Positions 1,966-38,503 of a stretch of DNA of 43,611 nucleotides are shown one piece after another. Within the stretch, counting starts at the first letter, position 1. The number at the start of each line of letters is the position of its first letter. The DNA is taken from positions 1-43,611 of IMG/VR virus record IMGVR_UViG_3300045136_000463; one strand, given 5' to 3'. The position numbers were made by a program, and so were the translations under genes. Source of the stretch: a virus. The notes under the pieces are model-generated. The model was given only the letters and a program-made list of their open reading frames with translations. It was not told where the DNA came from and made no database searches.

Positions 1966-3421
1966 CAGTGGACGCAGCACCATCGCGGAGCACGTGTACA
2001 AGCTGCCCAGGCTGGAGACGCCCCCGGTCGATGGCCCCTTCAGCGTCGCGGAGGCTCGGCTGTGGCAGTTTCTTGGACCGAGCAAGGACAAGCCCTTCAT
2101 CCCCTTCCCCGCGCAGGCCGAAATCCTGGAGGCGGTCCGCATCCCCTGGCCGGGAGTGAACAAGTACGGGGTGCCGCACCCGACGATCTACTGCCTGGAG
2201 TGCGCCCGCCGCTTCGGCAAGACCACGCTGGGGGAAATCTTCCTCTGGGAGGGGCTCCTGGCGCCCGACGACCACATGGGGCCGCCCTGTGTCCGCCTGA
2301 CGGCGGACACCGAAGAGCACGCGATGAAGATATGGCGGCGGTTCATCTGGCACCTGGAGAACACGCCGCTCTCTGGACTGCTCGACTCGTACAACAAGGA
2401 GTACCAGCTTGTCACGCTGAGGAACGGGGCGACGGCGCAGCTCCTCAGCGCGAACAACCCGAACGCCCTGGCGGGCGACGGCGTGACCCTCTGGGTGATC
2501 GACGAGGCGCAGTACTTAACCCAGGCGGCCTGGGTGAACCTCTTCCCCTCCACGGCGGACCGGAACGGGATCATCGTCATGCTGGGGGTGTGCGAGGGCG
2601 AGGGGCCGTTCAAAGAGGCGTGCCACCGTGGACATGCCGGCCCCCACCGCGACCCCGCCTATCGGACCTTCACCTACCCGACGAGCGCCAACCCATACGT
2701 CCCGAAGTGGCGGATCGAGTTCGCCCGCCAGCAGCTCCCGCCGGCGAAGTTCCGCCAGCTCTATCTCGCCCAGTGGGTCGGCGAGCTGGGCAAAATCTTC
2801 CGCAACGTCGAGGGCTGCGTGAACGGGAAGCAGATTCAGGTGCATCCGAAGGGCTGGGGCTTCACGCAGCCCTATAAGCCTGGACATACCTACTACGGCG
2901 GCCTGGACCTGGCCCGCCTCCAGGACTGGACGGCCTTCACCATCTGGACCGAGGACGGGGAGCTGGTGGCCTGGGATCGCTTCAACCTGATGGGCTGGGA
3001 GCTGCAAAAGGCCCGCATCTTAGAGCTGTCGGCGGCCTATCAGCACCCGCTGACCTGCATCGACTCCACGGGGATCGGGGACCCGATCTACGACGACCTG
3101 GTGAGAAAGGGCATGAACCTGGAGGAGTACCGGATCACGGGGAACGAGAAGAAGCGGGTGCTGATCGACGAACTCGCGGTGCGGATCGGCGCGGGGACGC
3201 TCCGCTACCCGCGCGTCAACGTCCTCCTGGCGGAGCTGAACCGCATGGAGGCGAAGCGCAGCGAGAACAGTCTGGCGGTGAAGTACGAGGCCCCCTCGGG
3301 GGGGACCGACGACTTCGTGCTGGCCTGCGCCCTGGCCTGCTACCTGCTCCCCCCGCCGCACGTGCCCCGCCCCGTGGAGGCCGCGCTGGAGCGCGAGCGG
3401 GCGAGCTGGGAATACCTCTAG
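1958..3421 (+). CDS. terL: Terminase large subunit
   Basis: A 487-residue DNA-packaging motor. The N-terminal ATPase shows a Walker A-like CARRFGKTT (about 80-90) and Walker B LWVIDEAQY (about 178). The C-terminal RNase H-like nuclease shows acidic clusters GLDLARLQDW (about 313), CIDSTGIGD (about 367) and TDDFVLA (about 449). The ATG at 1958 overlaps the end of the small-subunit gene; the longer upstream reading frame only shadows that gene. It acts at the portal to translocate and cut DNA. All core motifs are intact. Confidence 0.95.
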   Translation: MPSSGRSTIAEHVYKLPRLETPPVDGPFSVAEARLWQFLGPSKDKPFIPFPAQAEILEAVRIPWPGVNKYGVPHPTIYCLECARRFGKTTLGEIFLWEGLLAPDDHMGPPCVRLTADTEEHAMKIWRRFIWHLENTPLSGLLDSYNKEYQLVTLRNGATAQLLSANNPNALAGDGVTLWVIDEAQYLTQAAWVNLFPSTADRNGIIVMLGVCEGEGPFKEACHRGHAGPHRDPAYRTFTYPTSANPYVPKWRIEFARQQLPPAKFRQLYLAQWVGELGKIFRNVEGCVNGKQIQVHPKGWGFTQPYKPGHTYYGGLDLARLQDWTAFTIWTEDGELVAWDRFNLMGWELQKARILELSAAYQHPLTCIDSTGIGDPIYDDLVRKGMNLEEYRITGNEKKRVLIDELAVRIGAGTLRYPRVNVLLAELNRMEAKRSENSLAVKYEAPSGGTDDFVLACALACYLLPPPHVPRPVEAALERERASWEYL

Positions 3422-3430
3422 GGGGAGGAC

Positions 3431-3470
3431 CCCCTGGGACCCCCCATAGGGGTCCCCTGGGACCCCCCAT
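3431..3470 (+). promoter_or_regulatory. Mutually exclusive hairpins after terL
   Basis: GGGGTCCC (3449-3456) can pair with GGGACCCC on its left (3436-3443, loop CCATA) or with GGGACCCC on its right (3459-3466, loop CT). The 17-mer CCCCTGGGACCCCCCAT is present twice (3431-3447 and 3454-3470). No T-run follows, so it is not a standard intrinsic terminator. The alternative pairing resembles an attenuator. Confidence 0.5.
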
Positions 3471-3482
3471 GGGTACCGGCGC

Positions 3483-3503
3483 CCACCCCTGGGGTGGTAT
3501 ACT
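3483..3503 (+). promoter_or_regulatory. Extended -10 promoter P2 with overlapping operator-like dyad
   Basis: TATACT (3498-3503) with TG at 3495-3496 is an extended -10. The 15-bp odd palindrome CCACCCCTGGGGTGG (3483-3497) overlaps the TG element, so a bound dimer would block RNA polymerase. The promoter lies upstream of the small gene at 3537 and the portal. No -35 consensus is visible. Confidence 0.55.
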
Positions 3504-3536
3504 CCCCCCAGCCAACTTGACATAACGGGAGGGGCG

Positions 3537-3689
3537 GTGGAGACCCGCCTGAACCTGCTCGTGACCCTGGTGAACGTGGCCGTCTGTGTGCTGCGCGAGG
3601 AGAGCCTGCCCGCCGACTGCCGCGAGGCAGCCCACCGGCTCCTCCGCGCCGCCCTTGCCGACCTGGGGACGCTCCCGCGTCCGGAGTAG
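3537..3689 (+). CDS. Small alpha-helical protein before portal
   Basis: A 50-residue protein from GTG with a GGGAGGGG ribosome site 2-9 bases upstream. The first half is hydrophobic (LNLLVTLVNVAVCVL), the second half an Ala/Arg-rich amphipathic helix. GC3 is high and the stop lies 3 bases before the portal start, which supports a genuine gene. TTGACATAACG (3517-3527) lies just upstream. No family is recognised; a membrane-associated or helical-bundle protein is possible. Confidence 0.5.
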   Translation: METRLNLLVTLVNVAVCVLREESLPADCREAAHRLLRAALADLGTLPRPE

Positions 3690-3692
3690 TCC

Positions 3693-5840
3693 GTGATCGG
3701 CCATGCCGGTCCCGATGGCGTCGGCATTCCCCTGGGGGGGTCTTTCCGCGTCACCCCCCGGGGCTACCGTGCCTACCCCCGCGCTGCGCGCGGCAAGGAC
3801 GCGGGGGTGCGCGAGACAGGGGAGGTCCGCTACAAGTCGGGCCTCACCGTCATGCGCGGCAAGCCCGGCGCCTCGGAGGACGTGCTGGCGCAGCTCATGC
3901 GCTGGGCGACCCTCGACAAGAACCGCTGGGAGCAGCGGAATCAGCGCTTCAAGCGCGACCAGGAGCTGTACCAGCTCAAGACGCCCGCCGAGGTCACGGC
4001 GCGGGTGGCCAGTGACATCCTGATCCTGCCCGACCCGAAGATTCTGATCAAGAAGCTGGCGCGGCTGATCGCGCGGCACCCGGCCGTCATCGAGGTCCCC
4101 CCGGCGCCCGGCACCTCCGGCCTGGAGGCCCAGAAGATCGAGAACTATCTCTACCTCTGGGATCAGGCGGTCAACCAGCGCTGGATGCTCGGCCTCAACA
4201 ACCCTTACCGTTACGACCAGGCGTTCTACGCCACCCTGCGCGGCTGGCAGTGCATGCGGACCCTGCTGCTGCCCGACGCCGCCGACTCGGACGACCAGGA
4301 CCCGGCCGCGCTCTACGACCATCGCGTGTTCGACCCCGCCAACGTCTACCCGCACGTCTCGGGCAACGAGGTGACGCGGGTGACGCACTACTTCCAGGCC
4401 ACGGTGGGCGAGCTGCGCATGGACCCCTTCTACGCCGACGCCTTTGACGGCCAGTGGGAGGCGCTGGACGACAACGTGCTGATCCAGATTCACGCCCTGT
4501 ACTGGAAGGACGCCGGGAGCTGGTGGCACGCCGTCACGGGCGGCGGGGCGCTCGCGCGCGGCCCGGACTCGTTGTTCATTAAGGAACCCACGGAGCTGGG
4601 CTACAACCCCTGGACGATCGTGCTCTCCAACGGCTCCTCCTACCGCTGGACGCCCTGGGATGACCTCGCCTACCTCGAAGAGATCGGCACGGGGGCGCTG
4701 GAGGACGGCGCGAGCACCTTCACCTATCTCAACCGCATGGCGACGAAGCTCAACGAGCTGCTGAGCCTGGAGGCCGACCCGCCGGCCACCGCCTACCTGC
4801 AAAACAATCAGGTCAAAGTGCTGAAGTTCCATCATGGGGCGCGGAACTTCCTGAGCGCGAAGGACAAGCTGGAGCTGCACCGTGTCGGACCACAGCTCGG
4901 AGACTACCAACTGCTCTGGGATATTCTCGCCCAACGGGCAGCTCGTGCCGGTCTCCCGCCCGCGTTCTTTGCGGAATATGGCGGTGAGTCGGGCTTTAGC
5001 GCGTCTGTCATCATGGCCGCTGGCAAAGACATTCTTTATCCCTTTACTGAGGCTGTTAACCAGGCTGATGCCCTGATCTATCGCAAGGTCCTGGAGCTCT
5101 ACCGCGACTACGGGCCGGGGAAGCCGCTGCGGACCAAACTGCCGCCCACGCCGATGGGCGCCGTCCAGGCCGCCGAGATCACGGCGAAGGAGATCAACAC
5201 CCAGGGGACGTATGTCGAGGTCACGCGCGAGGACATGACGCCGCAGGAGATGGTGGCGCGGATCAACATCGGCCTGGCCCAACTGCGAGATAAGGCCATC
5301 TCGCTCAAGCGCTTCCGCAAGGAGTACGCGAAGATCAAGAACCCGGACGCGGAGAACCTGGACGTGCTCGCGGAGCAGGTCTACCTCTCCGAGGACGTGA
5401 TCAAGACGCTGATCCCCGTGGCCTTGCAGAGCACGGGGCAGGACTACTTGCGGAAGGTCTGGGAGCTGGTGCAGAGCCCCGTGCCGCCCGAGCCGCAGTT
5501 GCCGCCAGGGATGCCTGGGGCGGCGGCGCCGCCCGGACCGCCCGGGGCCATGCCCGTCCCGCCGGGGATGCCACCCCCCGGCATGCCCTTCCCGCCAGGT
5601 ATCCCCGTGGGTGCCGCGCCGCCCCCTGGTCCGCCAGGGCTGCCAGGGCAGGCGATGCCGCCGATCATGGCCGGCAACCTGCTCACGAACACGCCGCTGC
5701 CGCCCGAGCTGGCCCTGCTCAATCAGCTCCTGGGCGGCGTCCAGGGCGGCGCCGTGGGCGGCATCGGCACGGGCGGGACGCCGCCCATCCCCGGCACGAC
5801 CAGTCCGATCCCGTTCATCCCCGCCCCAGGAGCCAGGTGA
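3693..5840 (+). CDS. Portal protein
   Basis: A 715-residue protein directly after terL, the usual place for the dodecameric portal through which DNA enters and leaves the head. The core (about residues 60-570) fits a portal: N-terminal helices (LDKNRWEQRNQRFKRD), a wing with FDPANVYPHVSG, and the conserved GESGFSASVIMAAGKD stretch (about 428-445). The final ~110 residues are a Pro/Gly/Met-rich tail with PPGMP repeats, unlike a normal portal end. GTG 3693 is the start. Codons at about 4870-5090 use far more A/T in third positions than the rest, marking a possible recombination tract. Confidence 0.88.
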   Translation: MIGHAGPDGVGIPLGGSFRVTPRGYRAYPRAARGKDAGVRETGEVRYKSGLTVMRGKPGASEDVLAQLMRWATLDKNRWEQRNQRFKRDQELYQLKTPAEVTARVASDILILPDPKILIKKLARLIARHPAVIEVPPAPGTSGLEAQKIENYLYLWDQAVNQRWMLGLNNPYRYDQAFYATLRGWQCMRTLLLPDAADSDDQDPAALYDHRVFDPANVYPHVSGNEVTRVTHYFQATVGELRMDPFYADAFDGQWEALDDNVLIQIHALYWKDAGSWWHAVTGGGALARGPDSLFIKEPTELGYNPWTIVLSNGSSYRWTPWDDLAYLEEIGTGALEDGASTFTYLNRMATKLNELLSLEADPPATAYLQNNQVKVLKFHHGARNFLSAKDKLELHRVGPQLGDYQLLWDILAQRAARAGLPPAFFAEYGGESGFSASVIMAAGKDILYPFTEAVNQADALIYRKVLELYRDYGPGKPLRTKLPPTPMGAVQAAEITAKEINTQGTYVEVTREDMTPQEMVARINIGLAQLRDKAISLKRFRKEYAKIKNPDAENLDVLAEQVYLSEDVIKTLIPVALQSTGQDYLRKVWELVQSPVPPEPQLPPGMPGAAAPPGPPGAMPVPPGMPPPGMPFPPGIPVGAAPPPGPPGLPGQAMPPIMAGNLLTNTPLPPELALLNQLLGGVQGGAVGGIGTGGTPPIPGTTSPIPFIPAPGAR

Positions 5841-34503: not shown

Positions 34504-35136
34504 CTAGACTTTCACGGCGCGGATGAGGTCCGCCGGCAGCGGGTAGCCGAGGGCCTCTAAGAGATCAAGGGTGAGCTGGATCATCGGCGCGTTCCGCAAG
34601 GACTCGACGTAGTTCGCCTGCCAGAAGGCGCTGTCCAGGCTGGTGATGTCATCCCAGTAGCGCACTAGCTCCCGGCGCACTTCGGCGTGGTCGCCCACGG
34701 CGAGGTATTGGGCGAGCGTGTCCCCGATGCAGTGGACGTTGCGGACGATCCGCTCGTACTGCTGCTGGCTCCAGGTGGCCTTGCCCTCCACCCGCCCGGC
34801 GGTGGCCTGGTCGCGCAGGGCGGGCGAGGGCCGCTCCAGCCCGCGCCGCCACTCGTCCAGCCCCCGATACAGGAGGTCGCGGTAAAGGTCGCTCATGGTC
34901 TTGAACGGCGTGCGGGGGTCGTGCAGCAGCTCCTCCGCCGCCCGATAGAAGCTCTCCGCCAGGCGAACGTTGGCGGGCACGGTCTTCGGGTCGTTGATCC
35001 CTCGCGGCGAGGGGTCGAAGCCGTCGTCGTCCAGGGGGTCGCCCACCCGAATCTCGCGCAGCGGTTTTACTCGCGATTTCGTCCCGTCCGGGTTGACCAC
35101 GGCCCAATCTTGATAACGCGAGTGCTTGAGGCTCAT
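34504..35136 (-). CDS. Unknown replication-region protein
   Basis: A 210-residue protein starting at ATG 35136, which overlaps the polymerase stop (ATGA). It is helical with FKTMSDLYRDLLYRGLDEW and WSQQQYERIVRNVHCIGD. The C-terminus (DLLEALGYPLPADLIRAVK) is also helical. The tight coupling to the polymerase suggests co-expression with replication proteins. No family is recognised. Confidence 0.6.
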   Translation of the reverse strand: MSLKHSRYQDWAVVNPDGTKSRVKPLREIRVGDPLDDDGFDPSPRGINDPKTVPANVRLAESFYRAAEELLHDPRTPFKTMSDLYRDLLYRGLDEWRRGLERPSPALRDQATAGRVEGKATWSQQQYERIVRNVHCIGDTLAQYLAVGDHAEVRRELVRYWDDITSLDSAFWQANYVESLRNAPMIQLTLDLLEALGYPLPADLIRAVKV

Positions 35137-38105
35137 GCGGCCCGCTCCAGCCACGCTTCGATGGGCGTCTGGTCCGCCCAGTTCGGGCCGACCGAGACTT
35201 CGAGACGGAGCGGGACCGCCAGGTGCTCCGCGCCGAGCGCGGCGCCGAGGGCGGCCAGCTCGGCGGCGAAGGGCGCCACGGCGGCGTGCGGCACCTCGTA
35301 GACGACCTCATCGTGAACGGTGAGGACTAGTTGAGCGTCAAAGTGCGCGGCGAGTGCATCGGCGCGCCCAAGTAGCAGTTTGAGGAGGCCGCCGGCCGTG
35401 CCCTGGATGGGGCAGTTGGCAGCTTCTCGAAGAGCGGCCCGAGACTCGGATCGTAGGGGACTGCGGTACAGAGGATAGTAGTTCCGCCAGCCGAATAGAG
35501 TCTCAACCCAGCCGTGCCGTCCCAGATGCTCGGCAACGGATTGCTGCCAGGATAGAAGAGAGGGGAGGCGCAGTCGCAGATTATCAAGGAACGCTCGGGC
35601 GTGTCCACCACTCACTCCTGCCGTCTCGGCCAGCTTGGGGGCGTCGGCCCCGTAGATCGCTCCGAAGAGCACGTTCTTGGCGCGGGCGCGGGGGATGCCC
35701 AGCTCGTCCGCCACGAGCTGATGCACGTCGGTCTCCGCGCCGGGGGCGTAGGCGCGCAGCAGGACGGGCTCGCGCGTGTAGTGCGCGTAGATGCGGACCT
35801 CTAGCTGGGAGAAGTCCGCCTTGACCAGGAGATGACCGGGGCGGGCAACGAAGGCCCGCCGGATGCGCTTGCCCAGGGCGGTCCGTGCGGGTATGTTCTG
35901 CAGGTTGGGATCGGAGGAGGACAGCCGATTGGTCGCCGTGACCATCTGATTATAGCTGCCATGCACCCTCCCCTGGGCATCCCGCGCGGCCAGGAGGGCG
36001 GTGACGTAAGTGCTGTGCAGCTTACCCAGGTTCCGCCAGGCCAGCAAGTCCCGAACGATGAGGGCCGGGCGGTCGTAGCGGGTGACTAGCTGCTCCTCGG
36101 TATCGACGCCCACTGCCCGGAGCAGGGCAGGTTTGTCCACCGCGACCTGGCCCGTCTCGGTCCGGGCGGTGAGGGACAGGCCGCTGGCTAACAGGGCGCG
36201 GGCGATCTTCGGGTTACTCCCGAGATCGGCCCTGTCCATGTCCAGCAGGGCGCTCAAGGTGTCCGCAACGCTGTCGCGGGCACGGGTCAGGTGCTCGCCG
36301 ATCTTCACCAGCTCGTCACTATCGACGAGGACGCCGCCGCGCTCCAGGCGGTAGAGGATGGGTACGGTGGGCTTCTCGAAGCGCTGGTAGTAGTGCAGCA
36401 GGCGCGGCTCGCGGCAGAGCTGCGGCCAGAGGACGCGCGCCAGGCGAGAGGTCACCACCGCGTCGAGCAGGGCGTACTCCTCGGCCTCGGCCGGGGACTC
36501 GGCCAGGGCTTCGGAAAAGCTGCGCCGCACTTTACGGTACGTCACCCGCTCTTTCCCCGACTTCAGGACCGTCCGCACCTCGCGCGTGGCGGTGAGGATC
36601 GCGCTGATCGGGCGCAGCGGCAGCCCGGTGATCTCCGGCCCAAGCTTCTTCAGGCCGACTTCGGGGTAGCGCAGGACGTAGGCGATGAGCGCGGTGTCCT
36701 CATAACTGTCAAGGTCATCCAGGTCCCCGCCGATCAGAGGAAGGTCAAACCTGGCGTTGTGGACCCAGACCTTAGGCGGGAGCGCCCGTTCTGCGCTCCA
36801 AAGCGCTTTAGTCTCTCCCGCGTCTCGGGGTACATCAGGTTCTCGTGGCGCGTCCCCTCCCGCAGGTGCCGCCAGTTGTAGCAGGCCCGCTGGTGACACT
36901 CGTGCATCACGTCCAGGCCCGGCCTCGGCGGGCGGCCCCACTTCAGGGTGAACGCGAGCTTGTGGACCCGCACCGTCCGGCCCTGGTGCTTGATCTGCCC
37001 GTAGCCGTCCCGGTCCCGCACCCCCGGCCAGAGGATGCACCGCTCGGTACAGCTCAGCAGACTCGCCGTCACTAAGCTGAACCGTGACGAGGGTTTGTCC
37101 ATGTCCTTCCTCCAGGGAGTCGGTCTCCGTATCTACTGCCAGCCAGGGGGAGGCGAGGTCCGGCGTGCCCCGCCGCCAGGGGTCGGGGACGAGCGCGGGC
37201 GGTGCGGGGTGCCCCAGGAGCGTGGCGGCGAGGGCCTTCAGCCGCCGCTCCCAGTCCGCCCGTTTGCGGGGGTTGCGGAGGATATAGGCGGGGTGCTCGA
37301 CGCTATGTACCGGCACGTCCAGGTCCAGGCGGCTTACGGAGTCCTGGGCGACGCGGCCCACGCACAGGATGGCCTCGGGCCGGACGCGGCGAATCTCCTG
37401 GGCCAGCCAGGGCCGGCAGTTGTCCTGCTCTTCTTTCGTCGGCGTCCGATTCTCGGGGGGCCGGCAGCGCACGGCATTCGTGAAGTACGTGAGATCGCGC
37501 GTAAGGCCCGCCTCGGCGAGGACGGCGCGCAGCAGGGTGCCCGAGCGGCCCACGAAGGGGGTGCCCGAGCTGTCCTCGTCGGCGCCAGGGGCCTCGCCCA
37601 CGATCATGAGCCGGGGCTGGCGGCCTCCAGTACCGCTAACAACGCAGGATCGCGATTCGACGAGCGCAGGGCAGCGAGTACAGCGGCTCTCCGCTCCGGG
37701 GGACCATACGGAAAGCGGCGCGCGGCCTCCGGCGGCGGCAGAGCCTTCAAGAACTGGTAGTCCAGCTCCGTCTTCGGGTCGAAGACCACGTCCGGCAGGA
37801 GCTTCGCTTGCAGCTCCAGGTCCGCCGCCAGCTTCGGCTCCACCGGCTTCTCGCTCGACAAAACGAAGTCCACCCTCGGGAGGGGGGGAGACAAACGCCT
37901 GCTGCCCACCCGGGGCGGGGACGACAAGGACGAGGCTCCCGGCGGGATAGTCGCCGTGGGCGTGCTTGAGGGCGTAGAGTTCGGCCGGCGTGTCGAGAGA
38001 CAGTCCGTGAACACCATCGATCAGCTCCTCCCAGGTGAAGCCGTGGTCGTGGGGGTCCTCCAGCTCCAGGCCGGCGAGGGAGGGCAGGGGATCGAAGCGG
38101 AGCAT
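35133..38105 (-). CDS. Family-4 uracil-DNA glycosylase fused to family-A DNA polymerase (interrupted)
   Basis: One open frame from ATG 38105 of 990 residues, with two suspect segments. Glycosylase, about 141-310: RCTRCPALVESR, GEAPGADED, GTPFVGRSG, VRCRPPENR, HPAYIL, with the four Fe-S Cys. Exonuclease, from LAVDTETDS (about 325) to HNARFDLPLI (about 453), YALLDAV later. Polymerase motifs A KADFSQLEVRI (about 763), B RARAKNVLFGAIYG (about 812), C VHDEVVYE (about 930). The fusion order resembles the SPO1 phage polymerase. Between Exo I and Exo II an HNH gene lies in another frame, and the open polymerase frame through it is low-complexity. The stretch 37690-37880 looks coded in another frame. 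Confidence 0.85.
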   Translation of the reverse strand: MLRFDPLPSLAGLELEDPHDHGFTWEELIDGVHGLSLDTPAELYALKHAHGDYPAGSLVLVVPAPGGQQAFVSPPPEGGLRFVEREAGGAEAGGGPGAASEAPAGRGLRPEDGAGLPVLEGSAAAGGRAPLSVWSPGAESRCTRCPALVESRSCVVSGTGGRQPRLMIVGEAPGADEDSSGTPFVGRSGTLLRAVLAEAGLTRDLTYFTNAVRCRPPENRTPTKEEQDNCRPWLAQEIRRVRPEAILCVGRVAQDSVSRLDLDVPVHSVEHPAYILRNPRKRADWERRLKALAATLLGHPAPPALVPDPWRRGTPDLASPWLAVDTETDSLEEGHGQTLVTVQLSDGESAELYRAVHPLAGGAGPGRLRADQAPGPDGAGPQARVHPEVGPPAEAGPGRDARVSPAGLLQLAAPAGGDAPREPDVPRDAGETKALWSAERALPPKVWVHNARFDLPLIGGDLDDLDSYEDTALIAYVLRYPEVGLKKLGPEITGLPLRPISAILTATREVRTVLKSGKERVTYRKVRRSFSEALAESPAEAEEYALLDAVVTSRLARVLWPQLCREPRLLHYYQRFEKPTVPILYRLERGGVLVDSDELVKIGEHLTRARDSVADTLSALLDMDRADLGSNPKIARALLASGLSLTARTETGQVAVDKPALLRAVGVDTEEQLVTRYDRPALIVRDLLAWRNLGKLHSTYVTALLAARDAQGRVHGSYNQMVTATNRLSSSDPNLQNIPARTALGKRIRRAFVARPGHLLVKADFSQLEVRIYAHYTREPVLLRAYAPGAETDVHQLVADELGIPRARAKNVLFGAIYGADAPKLAETAGVSGGHARAFLDNLRLRLPSLLSWQQSVAEHLGRHGWVETLFGWRNYYPLYRSPLRSESRAALREAANCPIQGTAGGLLKLLLGRADALAAHFDAQLVLTVHDEVVYEVPHAAVAPFAAELAALGAALGAEHLAVPLRLEVSVGPNWADQTPIEAWLERAA
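36734..37102 (-). CDS. HNH homing-type endonuclease nested in the polymerase gene
   Basis: A 122-residue frame, +1 to the polymerase. It carries the HNH_3-type motifs: LSCTERCILWPGVRDRDGYG, GRTVRVHKLAFTLKWG, DVMHECHQRACYNWRHLREG, then NGRSRL near the end. The central His, Asn and His are present. Between about 36770 and 37050 the HNH frame is the likely coding one; at both ends its frame runs over real polymerase sequence (LVTVQLSDGE upstream, KVWVHNARFD downstream). The insertion keeps the polymerase frame (multiple of three). A group I intron RNA is not seen; there is no room beyond the ORF. It parallels I-HmuI, an HNH enzyme in the SPO1 polymerase intron. Confidence 0.75.
   Translation of the reverse strand: MDKPSSRFSLVTASLLSCTERCILWPGVRDRDGYGQIKHQGRTVRVHKLAFTLKWGRPPRPGLDVMHECHQRACYNWRHLREGTRHENLMYPETRERLKRFGAQNGRSRLRSGSTTPGLTFL
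37604..38105 (-). CDS. N-terminal segment ahead of glycosylase with frame change at C7
   Basis: ATG 38105 (site GAGAGGGAG) starts MLRFDPLPSLAGLELEDPHD and continues in the polymerase frame to a run of seven C (37882-37888). After it the frame +1 reads VDFVLSSEKPVEPKLAADLE and onward to RFPYGPPERR with high GC3, while the original frame turns into Gly/Ala-rich sequence with A/T-rich third positions. A five-C run (37698-37702) marks the return to the original frame at RCTRCP. The +1 frame stops at 37604, overlapping an ATG (TCATGA). Either two compensating indels, programmed shifts, or a separate overlapping gene. Confidence 0.5.
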
Positions 38106-38119
38106 GGGATTCTCCCTCT

Positions 38120-38503
38120 CTAGTTGCGGGAGATGACGGCCGGGCTGATCTTGACCACGGCGCGCAGCATCTCGGGCCGGCCGGGGACCTCGACGACGAG
38201 CACGTCCGCGGTCTCCCCGGTCTCCTGAAGGTGGACGTGCTCGATCTCGTGGGTGACGAAGTGGTGGTCGAGGCTGGCGTGCTCGCGGTCGATCGGCAGG
38301 AAGCCCTGGCACTCGCCAGGGGCGCGCGGGCAGAGGACGGCGTGTGTCTCCAGCCACATGGCGAGGGTCCGCAGCTCTCGGGGTGAGCCGGTGGCGAGGG
38401 GCTTCGCATCGGCGCGGGTCAGCTCGTCGTCGCGCAGCAGCTCGTAGCGCTCGCGGGAGGCGTTCCAGACGACGGAGAACGGGGGCTGGGGCAGTCTGCT
38501 CAT
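38120..38503 (-). CDS. Unknown protein, first gene of the leftward block
   Basis: A 127-residue protein from ATG 38503 with GGAAGGG upstream; it is the first gene after the promoter at 38565. Residues about 10-60 have SVVWNASRERYELLRDDEL and AMWLETHAVLCPRAPGEC; two Cys and two His (HHFVTHEIEHVHL) in the second half suggest possible metal binding. The C-terminus is a beta-rich unit (ADVLVVEVPGRPEM). No family is recognised. Confidence 0.55.
   Translation of the reverse strand: MSRLPQPPFSVVWNASRERYELLRDDELTRADAKPLATGSPRELRTLAMWLETHAVLCPRAPGECQGFLPIDREHASLDHHFVTHEIEHVHLQETGETADVLVVEVPGRPEMLRAVVKISPAVISRN

Follow-up and report, generated by a model that had tools for sequence, protein, structure and literature searches.

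Homing genes can disturb a phage gene without an intron, as in the mobE-interrupted nrdA gene and in T4 gene 60; there, the host is either split or bypassed. The closest described systems are the ShiLan domain and the Pacc40 gp60 insert, HNH genes lying out of frame in mycobacteriophage DNA methylase genes (Arsenault, Gosselin, Gogarten; PMC11855218, 2025; PMC9957025, 2023). In both, the host frame is open, there is no intein or intron, and the product of the host frame is disordered (PMC11855218). The methylase hosts were deemed dispensable by the finders, who left open the route by which the hidden HNHs are translated (PMC11855218). Our text searches of the literature on out-of-frame homing genes in phages gave only this 2025 paper.

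Exploring a 43,611-bp virus record from IMG/VR (the window, meaning the whole stretch of DNA that was analysed), we confirmed that an HNH_3 endonuclease ORF is nested one frame off in a UDG-exonuclease-PolA polymerase ORF (Table 1). The plus strand of the window carries terminase, tail and lysis genes and the minus strand replication genes. The enclosing minus-strand ORF (35133-38357) holds UDG family 4, 3'-5' exonuclease and DNA_pol_A domains according to Pfam, PHROG and NCBIfam, and AlphaFold gave a Klenow-like model of the polymerase. The ORF is open stop-to-stop from 38585 with candidate starts at ATG 38105 or near 37713, leaving its N-terminus uncertain. With a shorter polymerase query, the tyrosine and aspartate of Exo III (Y406 and D410 in that numbering) were invariant across 30 sequences. 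Fusions of UDG family 4, exonuclease and PolA are common in viral contigs, and dozens were recovered (loci L091-L170). The C-terminal part of the polymerase at 35310-35621 (minus strand) shows clear homology, yet its codon use is atypical and it is scored as noncoding.

Table 1. Positions of the nested HNH gene and of its polymerase host in the window.
Feature	Position	Strand	Basis
Host polymerase ORF: family-4 UDG, 3'-5' exonuclease, family-A polymerase	35133..38105	-	Pfam/PHROG/NCBIfam matches; AF2 model like Klenow/KlenTaq; start codons
UDG family-4 domain of the polymerase polyprotein	37236..37682	-	TIGR00758, 139 bits, over cut-off; PF03167
Left exonuclease flank: Exo I (DTE, D409/E411 at about 37133-37125), strands beta2-beta3	37045..37145	-	55-fusion alignment; replacement test; AF2 strands
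GGAGGA Shine-Dalgarno of the nested HNH, inside exonuclease coding sequence	37108..37113	-	GGAGGA-n3-6-ATG site survey
Nested HNH endonuclease ORF, ATG to TGA, 122 aa, +1 relative to polymerase frame	36734..37102	-	ORF list, Pfam, PHROG; codon-usage segmentation 37109-36788
Inserted DNA: HNH_3 domain and GxxNGRxxL tail; about 90 Gly/Ala/Pro-rich residues in polymerase frame	36770..37045	-	HMM 98 bits; tail p~0.002; polymerase homology stops and resumes on either side; AF2
HNH motif core: H67..C69..C74-x-N76 (H79 at 36868-36866)	36874..36904	-	Invariant columns in an alignment of 24 relatives
Right exonuclease flank: strand beta4 and Exo II KVWVHNARFD, polymerase frame	36744..36773	-	Replacement test; alignment
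Exo III (Y-x3-D), exonuclease domain	36462..36476	-	Y628 and D632 invariant in alignment
DNA_pol_A polymerase domain	35172..36113	-	PF00476, 3.7e-78

The nested ORF matches PF13392 HNH_3 in Pfam (E=1.3e-8; 34.8 bits against a gathering cut-off of 24.8) and, among the PHROGs, phrog_1872 (1.1e-20) and phrog_826 (1.4e-20); when the insert core alone was searched against HNH families, an E-value of 1.6e-19 was retained. It scores 98 bits with a model that we built from 92 phage sequences, and it keeps H67-N76-H79 as well as C22, C69 and C74. AlphaFold folds the core of the HNH frame with a pLDDT of about 95, and the PDB fold closest to this model is I-HmuI (Foldseek probability 0.99, but an E-value of 0.028 only). 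A comparison of the HNH sequence with PDB sequences gave no meaningful match.

The codon use of the region follows the same frame. Segmentation by codon usage, which is independent of homology, moves the coding signature into the HNH frame from 37109 to 36788, and in the core GC3 is 97% in the HNH frame vs 47% in the polymerase frame, with codon scores per codon of +0.52 and -0.18, respectively. The HNH ATG is preceded by GGAGGA-AGGAC. The window has 11 sites of the form GGAGGA-n3-6-ATG, and at least nine of the ten other copies are at predicted gene starts: by coding segmentation, nine open an ORF that shares the stop of a predicted gene and start at a segment edge, and the tenth (24449) falls within a predicted coding segment. 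The site is strong evidence favouring a putative separately initiated HNH gene over an in-frame domain masked by sequence errors. As a start predictor for this phage, GGAGGA-n3-6-ATG is useful in its own right. An inverted repeat pairing the HNH Shine-Dalgarno with the HNH 3' end (11 nt) was set aside: the region has nine such pairs, this one included, and it is not distinguished from chance.

The edges of the insert were examined by swapping flanking residues for random out-of-frame peptides (replacement test). Polymerase homology was significant to ~37062 on the left and again from 36773 on the right; HNH homology spans 37045 to ~36770. The C-terminal tail of the HNH, GAQNGRSRL, fits the family motif GxxNGRxxL (p~0.002). 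Given that the homology of HNH residues 1-20 was no better than chance (p 0.13-0.5), the left edge was placed near 37045. From the limits of the two homologies it follows that about 276 nt (92 codons) were added, between exonuclease strands beta3 and beta4, and that both ends of the HNH are borrowed from out-of-frame polymerase DNA, its ATG and its stop lying in host codons, ~57 nt before and ~36 nt after the insert, respectively. Throughout the insert the polymerase frame stays open and encodes ~90 Gly/Ala/Pro-rich residues. UDG-polymerase fusions were aligned (55 sequences), and of the rows inspected only that of the window's polymerase has the additional segment. The original prediction, made from the letters alone, had described a +1 HNH frame between Exo I and Exo II, covering about 280 bases and running into real polymerase sequence on both sides, with a length that is a multiple of three and a polymerase frame open through about 90 low-complexity residues. 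The PF13392 and PHROG matches and the switch in codon phase bear out the frame and its position, the replacement test finds polymerase homology on both flanks, and the measured size and the uninterrupted frame agree with what was described. The alignment with related polymerases that it had proposed was run, and none of the aligned polymerases carried the same low-complexity segment without an HNH.

An open polymerase frame is only suggestive of selection for read-through, since the frame stays open in 14% of synonymous recodings of the HNH made with this phage's codon use, to be multiplied by 1/3 for phase. In the polymerase frame the insert gave no specific match in Pfam, PHROG or NCBIfam and no intein, and AlphaFold models it as disordered (pLDDT 30-39) with the exonuclease and the polymerase folding around it. 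Alignments show that all four exonuclease catalytic residues survive in Exo I, II and III (D/E/D/Y-D). The stretch corresponding to exonuclease helix alpha-A is now encoded by the DNA of the HNH tail, read in the frame of the polymerase, and its residues performed no better than random ones in the replacement test (p 0.46). Part of the native linker may thus have been lost, and because the HNH tail overlaps this stretch, the exonuclease may be impaired.

A frame change of another kind lies upstream in the same ORF. The gene that begins at ATG 38105 (MLRFDPLP..., minus strand) changes frame at a C7 run at ~37882, and by ~37705, near a C5 run and at the beginning of the UDG Cys motif, the codon signature is again that of the polymerase frame. 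From 38105 to 37607 the polymerase frame has no ATG, GTG or TTG. The TGA stop of the shifted frame overlaps an in-frame polymerase ATG (ATGA, 37604-37607, minus strand) within the UDG domain, downstream of the UDG cysteines. This switch looks like a run-length or other sequence error, slippage or a compensated frameshift.

Departure from and re-entry into the polymerase frame at such runs suggest that this contig may not give run lengths reliably, and this would favour an explanation by assembly indels, in which the HNH is an extra domain folded in frame and two base-count errors at the junctions mimic a frame shift. We regard this explanation as unlikely. In the HNH junction zones (37062-37042 and 36802-36770) the longest run is 3, so a run-length error there is improbable; two compensating errors would be required; the HNH has a canonical ribosome-binding site and an ATG of its own; and the compared coding segments end at proper stops, 37882-37705 being the exception. 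It is also rather improbable that the gene is dying or split, with proofreading inactivated by the insertion or with the polymerase made in two pieces as in the genes-in-pieces nrdA. The unrecognisable helix alpha-A would fit such decay, but the polymerase domain is intact, as are all catalytic residues of the exonuclease, the codon signatures of both the HNH and the polymerase are sharp, and inside the insert the polymerase frame offers only GTG candidates for a restart, with no strong Shine-Dalgarno.

Splicing of a minimal or unknown intron, with the HNH as its ORF, has precedent in the HNH-bearing group I introns of phage polymerase genes, of which I-HmuI in SPO1 is one example and I-PfoP3I in Pf-WMP3 (PMC3428280) another, and the RNA fold of the region has a z-score of -2.0; such a value is, however, unremarkable for GC-rich coding DNA, and the polymerase frame needs no splicing to be open. 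The original prediction had held that there is no room for a group I ribozyme, and we came to the same result: the ~276 nt are wholly HNH coding, with no noncoding DNA left, and the insert contains no group I core, group II intron or other Rfam intron family match even at E<=10. We consider an intron very unlikely. Translational bypass or frameshifting that joins the polymerase halves, or that yields a polymerase-HNH fusion, is more doubtful still. T4 gene 60 offers a precedent beside a homing gene, but its gap is 50 nt against about 276 nt here, the take-off site has no stop, the junctions have no slippery run, and an open frame makes bypass unnecessary. There is a slim chance that the segment is removed by an RNA-level or ribosome-level process without a known ribozyme, which would make it an intron-like or bypass element of a new type. 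Of the three options originally offered (in-frame insertion, minimal intron, bypass), the intron and the bypass gained no support; the in-frame insertion, with the addition of a separately initiated HNH, is favoured because HNH coding sequence fills the insert, Rfam yields no intron, the ribosome-binding site is the canonical strong one of this genome, and the polymerase frame is open with the exonuclease residues retained.

We therefore think it likely that an intronless homing-type HNH gene was inserted in a tolerated length and frame, and that the polymerase is read through it while the HNH is made from its own ribosome-binding site. An HNH gene of about 92 codons would have entered the exonuclease coding sequence one frame off, with ~19 residues at its start and ~12 at its end encoded by polymerase DNA in a frame that the polymerase does not use. 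The HNH would be translated separately from the Shine-Dalgarno and ATG within the upstream exonuclease codons. The polymerase message would stay unspliced, with ribosomes reading straight through it, and the enzyme would carry, and presumably tolerate, a predicted disordered loop of ~90 residues between strands beta3 and beta4. When a relative with an uninterrupted polymerase gene infects the same cell, the HNH could cut that gene, be copied into it during repair, and so spread. Since the ORF of its host remains intact, such an element can go unannotated. The canonical internal ribosome-binding site provides a directly testable route of translation, and with a loop of ~90 residues in a proofreading domain, what the insertion costs the host enzyme can be measured.

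Protein scans of viral and genome contigs, together with DNA-pattern scans, turned up no relative in which this site is present, whether empty or occupied; no close relative came to light in the collections searched, and the insert is absent from the distant fusions. Among 250 loci surveyed no second HNH nested in a polymerase was recognised; in the five overlaps encountered, a long ORF in a different frame runs across an HNH ORF. DNA-pattern scans of IMG/VR gave no second case in a polymerase either; two matches proved to be ordinary HNH genes, one (L251) with HHNTKFD in its own tail and the other (L252) a free HNH ORF. The polymerase of Corynebacterium phage Stiles was considered as a donor context and rejected, being only distantly related.

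Free-standing phage HNH_3 genes, such as T7-like gp7.7 and Stiles gp46, encode proteins of the same family with 33-43% identity to the window's HNH; they sit between genes, whereas the HNH of the window is nested inside one. In Stiles (3016-5525) the free-standing HNH of this family begins on the final base of a PolA-type gene, an arrangement comparable to the free-standing HNHs beside the methylases of Sashimi and Tiff81. Like the window, SPO1 and Pf-WMP3 carry an HNH gene inside the gene for a DNA polymerase, but I-HmuI of SPO1 and I-PfoP3I of Pf-WMP3 (PMC3428280) lie in self-splicing group I introns, and the polymerase gene of the window shows no known intron. With mobE/nrdA and T4 gene 60 the difference is that the window's host frame stays open, and theirs is split or bypassed.

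With ShiLan and Pacc40, a precedent that the original prediction had missed, the window shares an HNH in another frame, on the same strand, inside a host gene; an open host frame with no detectable intein or intron; and a segment that is disordered in the host frame and folds in the HNH frame. The host differs, a family-A DNA polymerase in place of a methylase, as does the HNH subfamily (HNH_3, with 98 bits in our model against 13-14 bits for ShiLan). The HNH is in the second frame in the window and in the third in ShiLan gp65 as re-read here, and the insert has about 92 codons against 202 in ShiLan. The start and stop of the HNH are host codons in the window and lie within the insert in ShiLan, which is a descriptive feature of ShiLan and not a definition. 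A canonical Shine-Dalgarno precedes the HNH of the window, whereas ShiLan is without one (PMC11855218). A disjunct distribution is a further ShiLan-type feature; the comparison for the window's insert is with distant fusions only. The hidden out-of-frame HNH arrangement thus extends beyond mycobacteriophage methylases to a case in a replicative-type polymerase. Judged from its sequence, the locus is the same kind of arrangement as ShiLan and Pacc40, and what is new here is the polymerase host, the HNH subfamily, the frame and the canonical ribosome-binding site.
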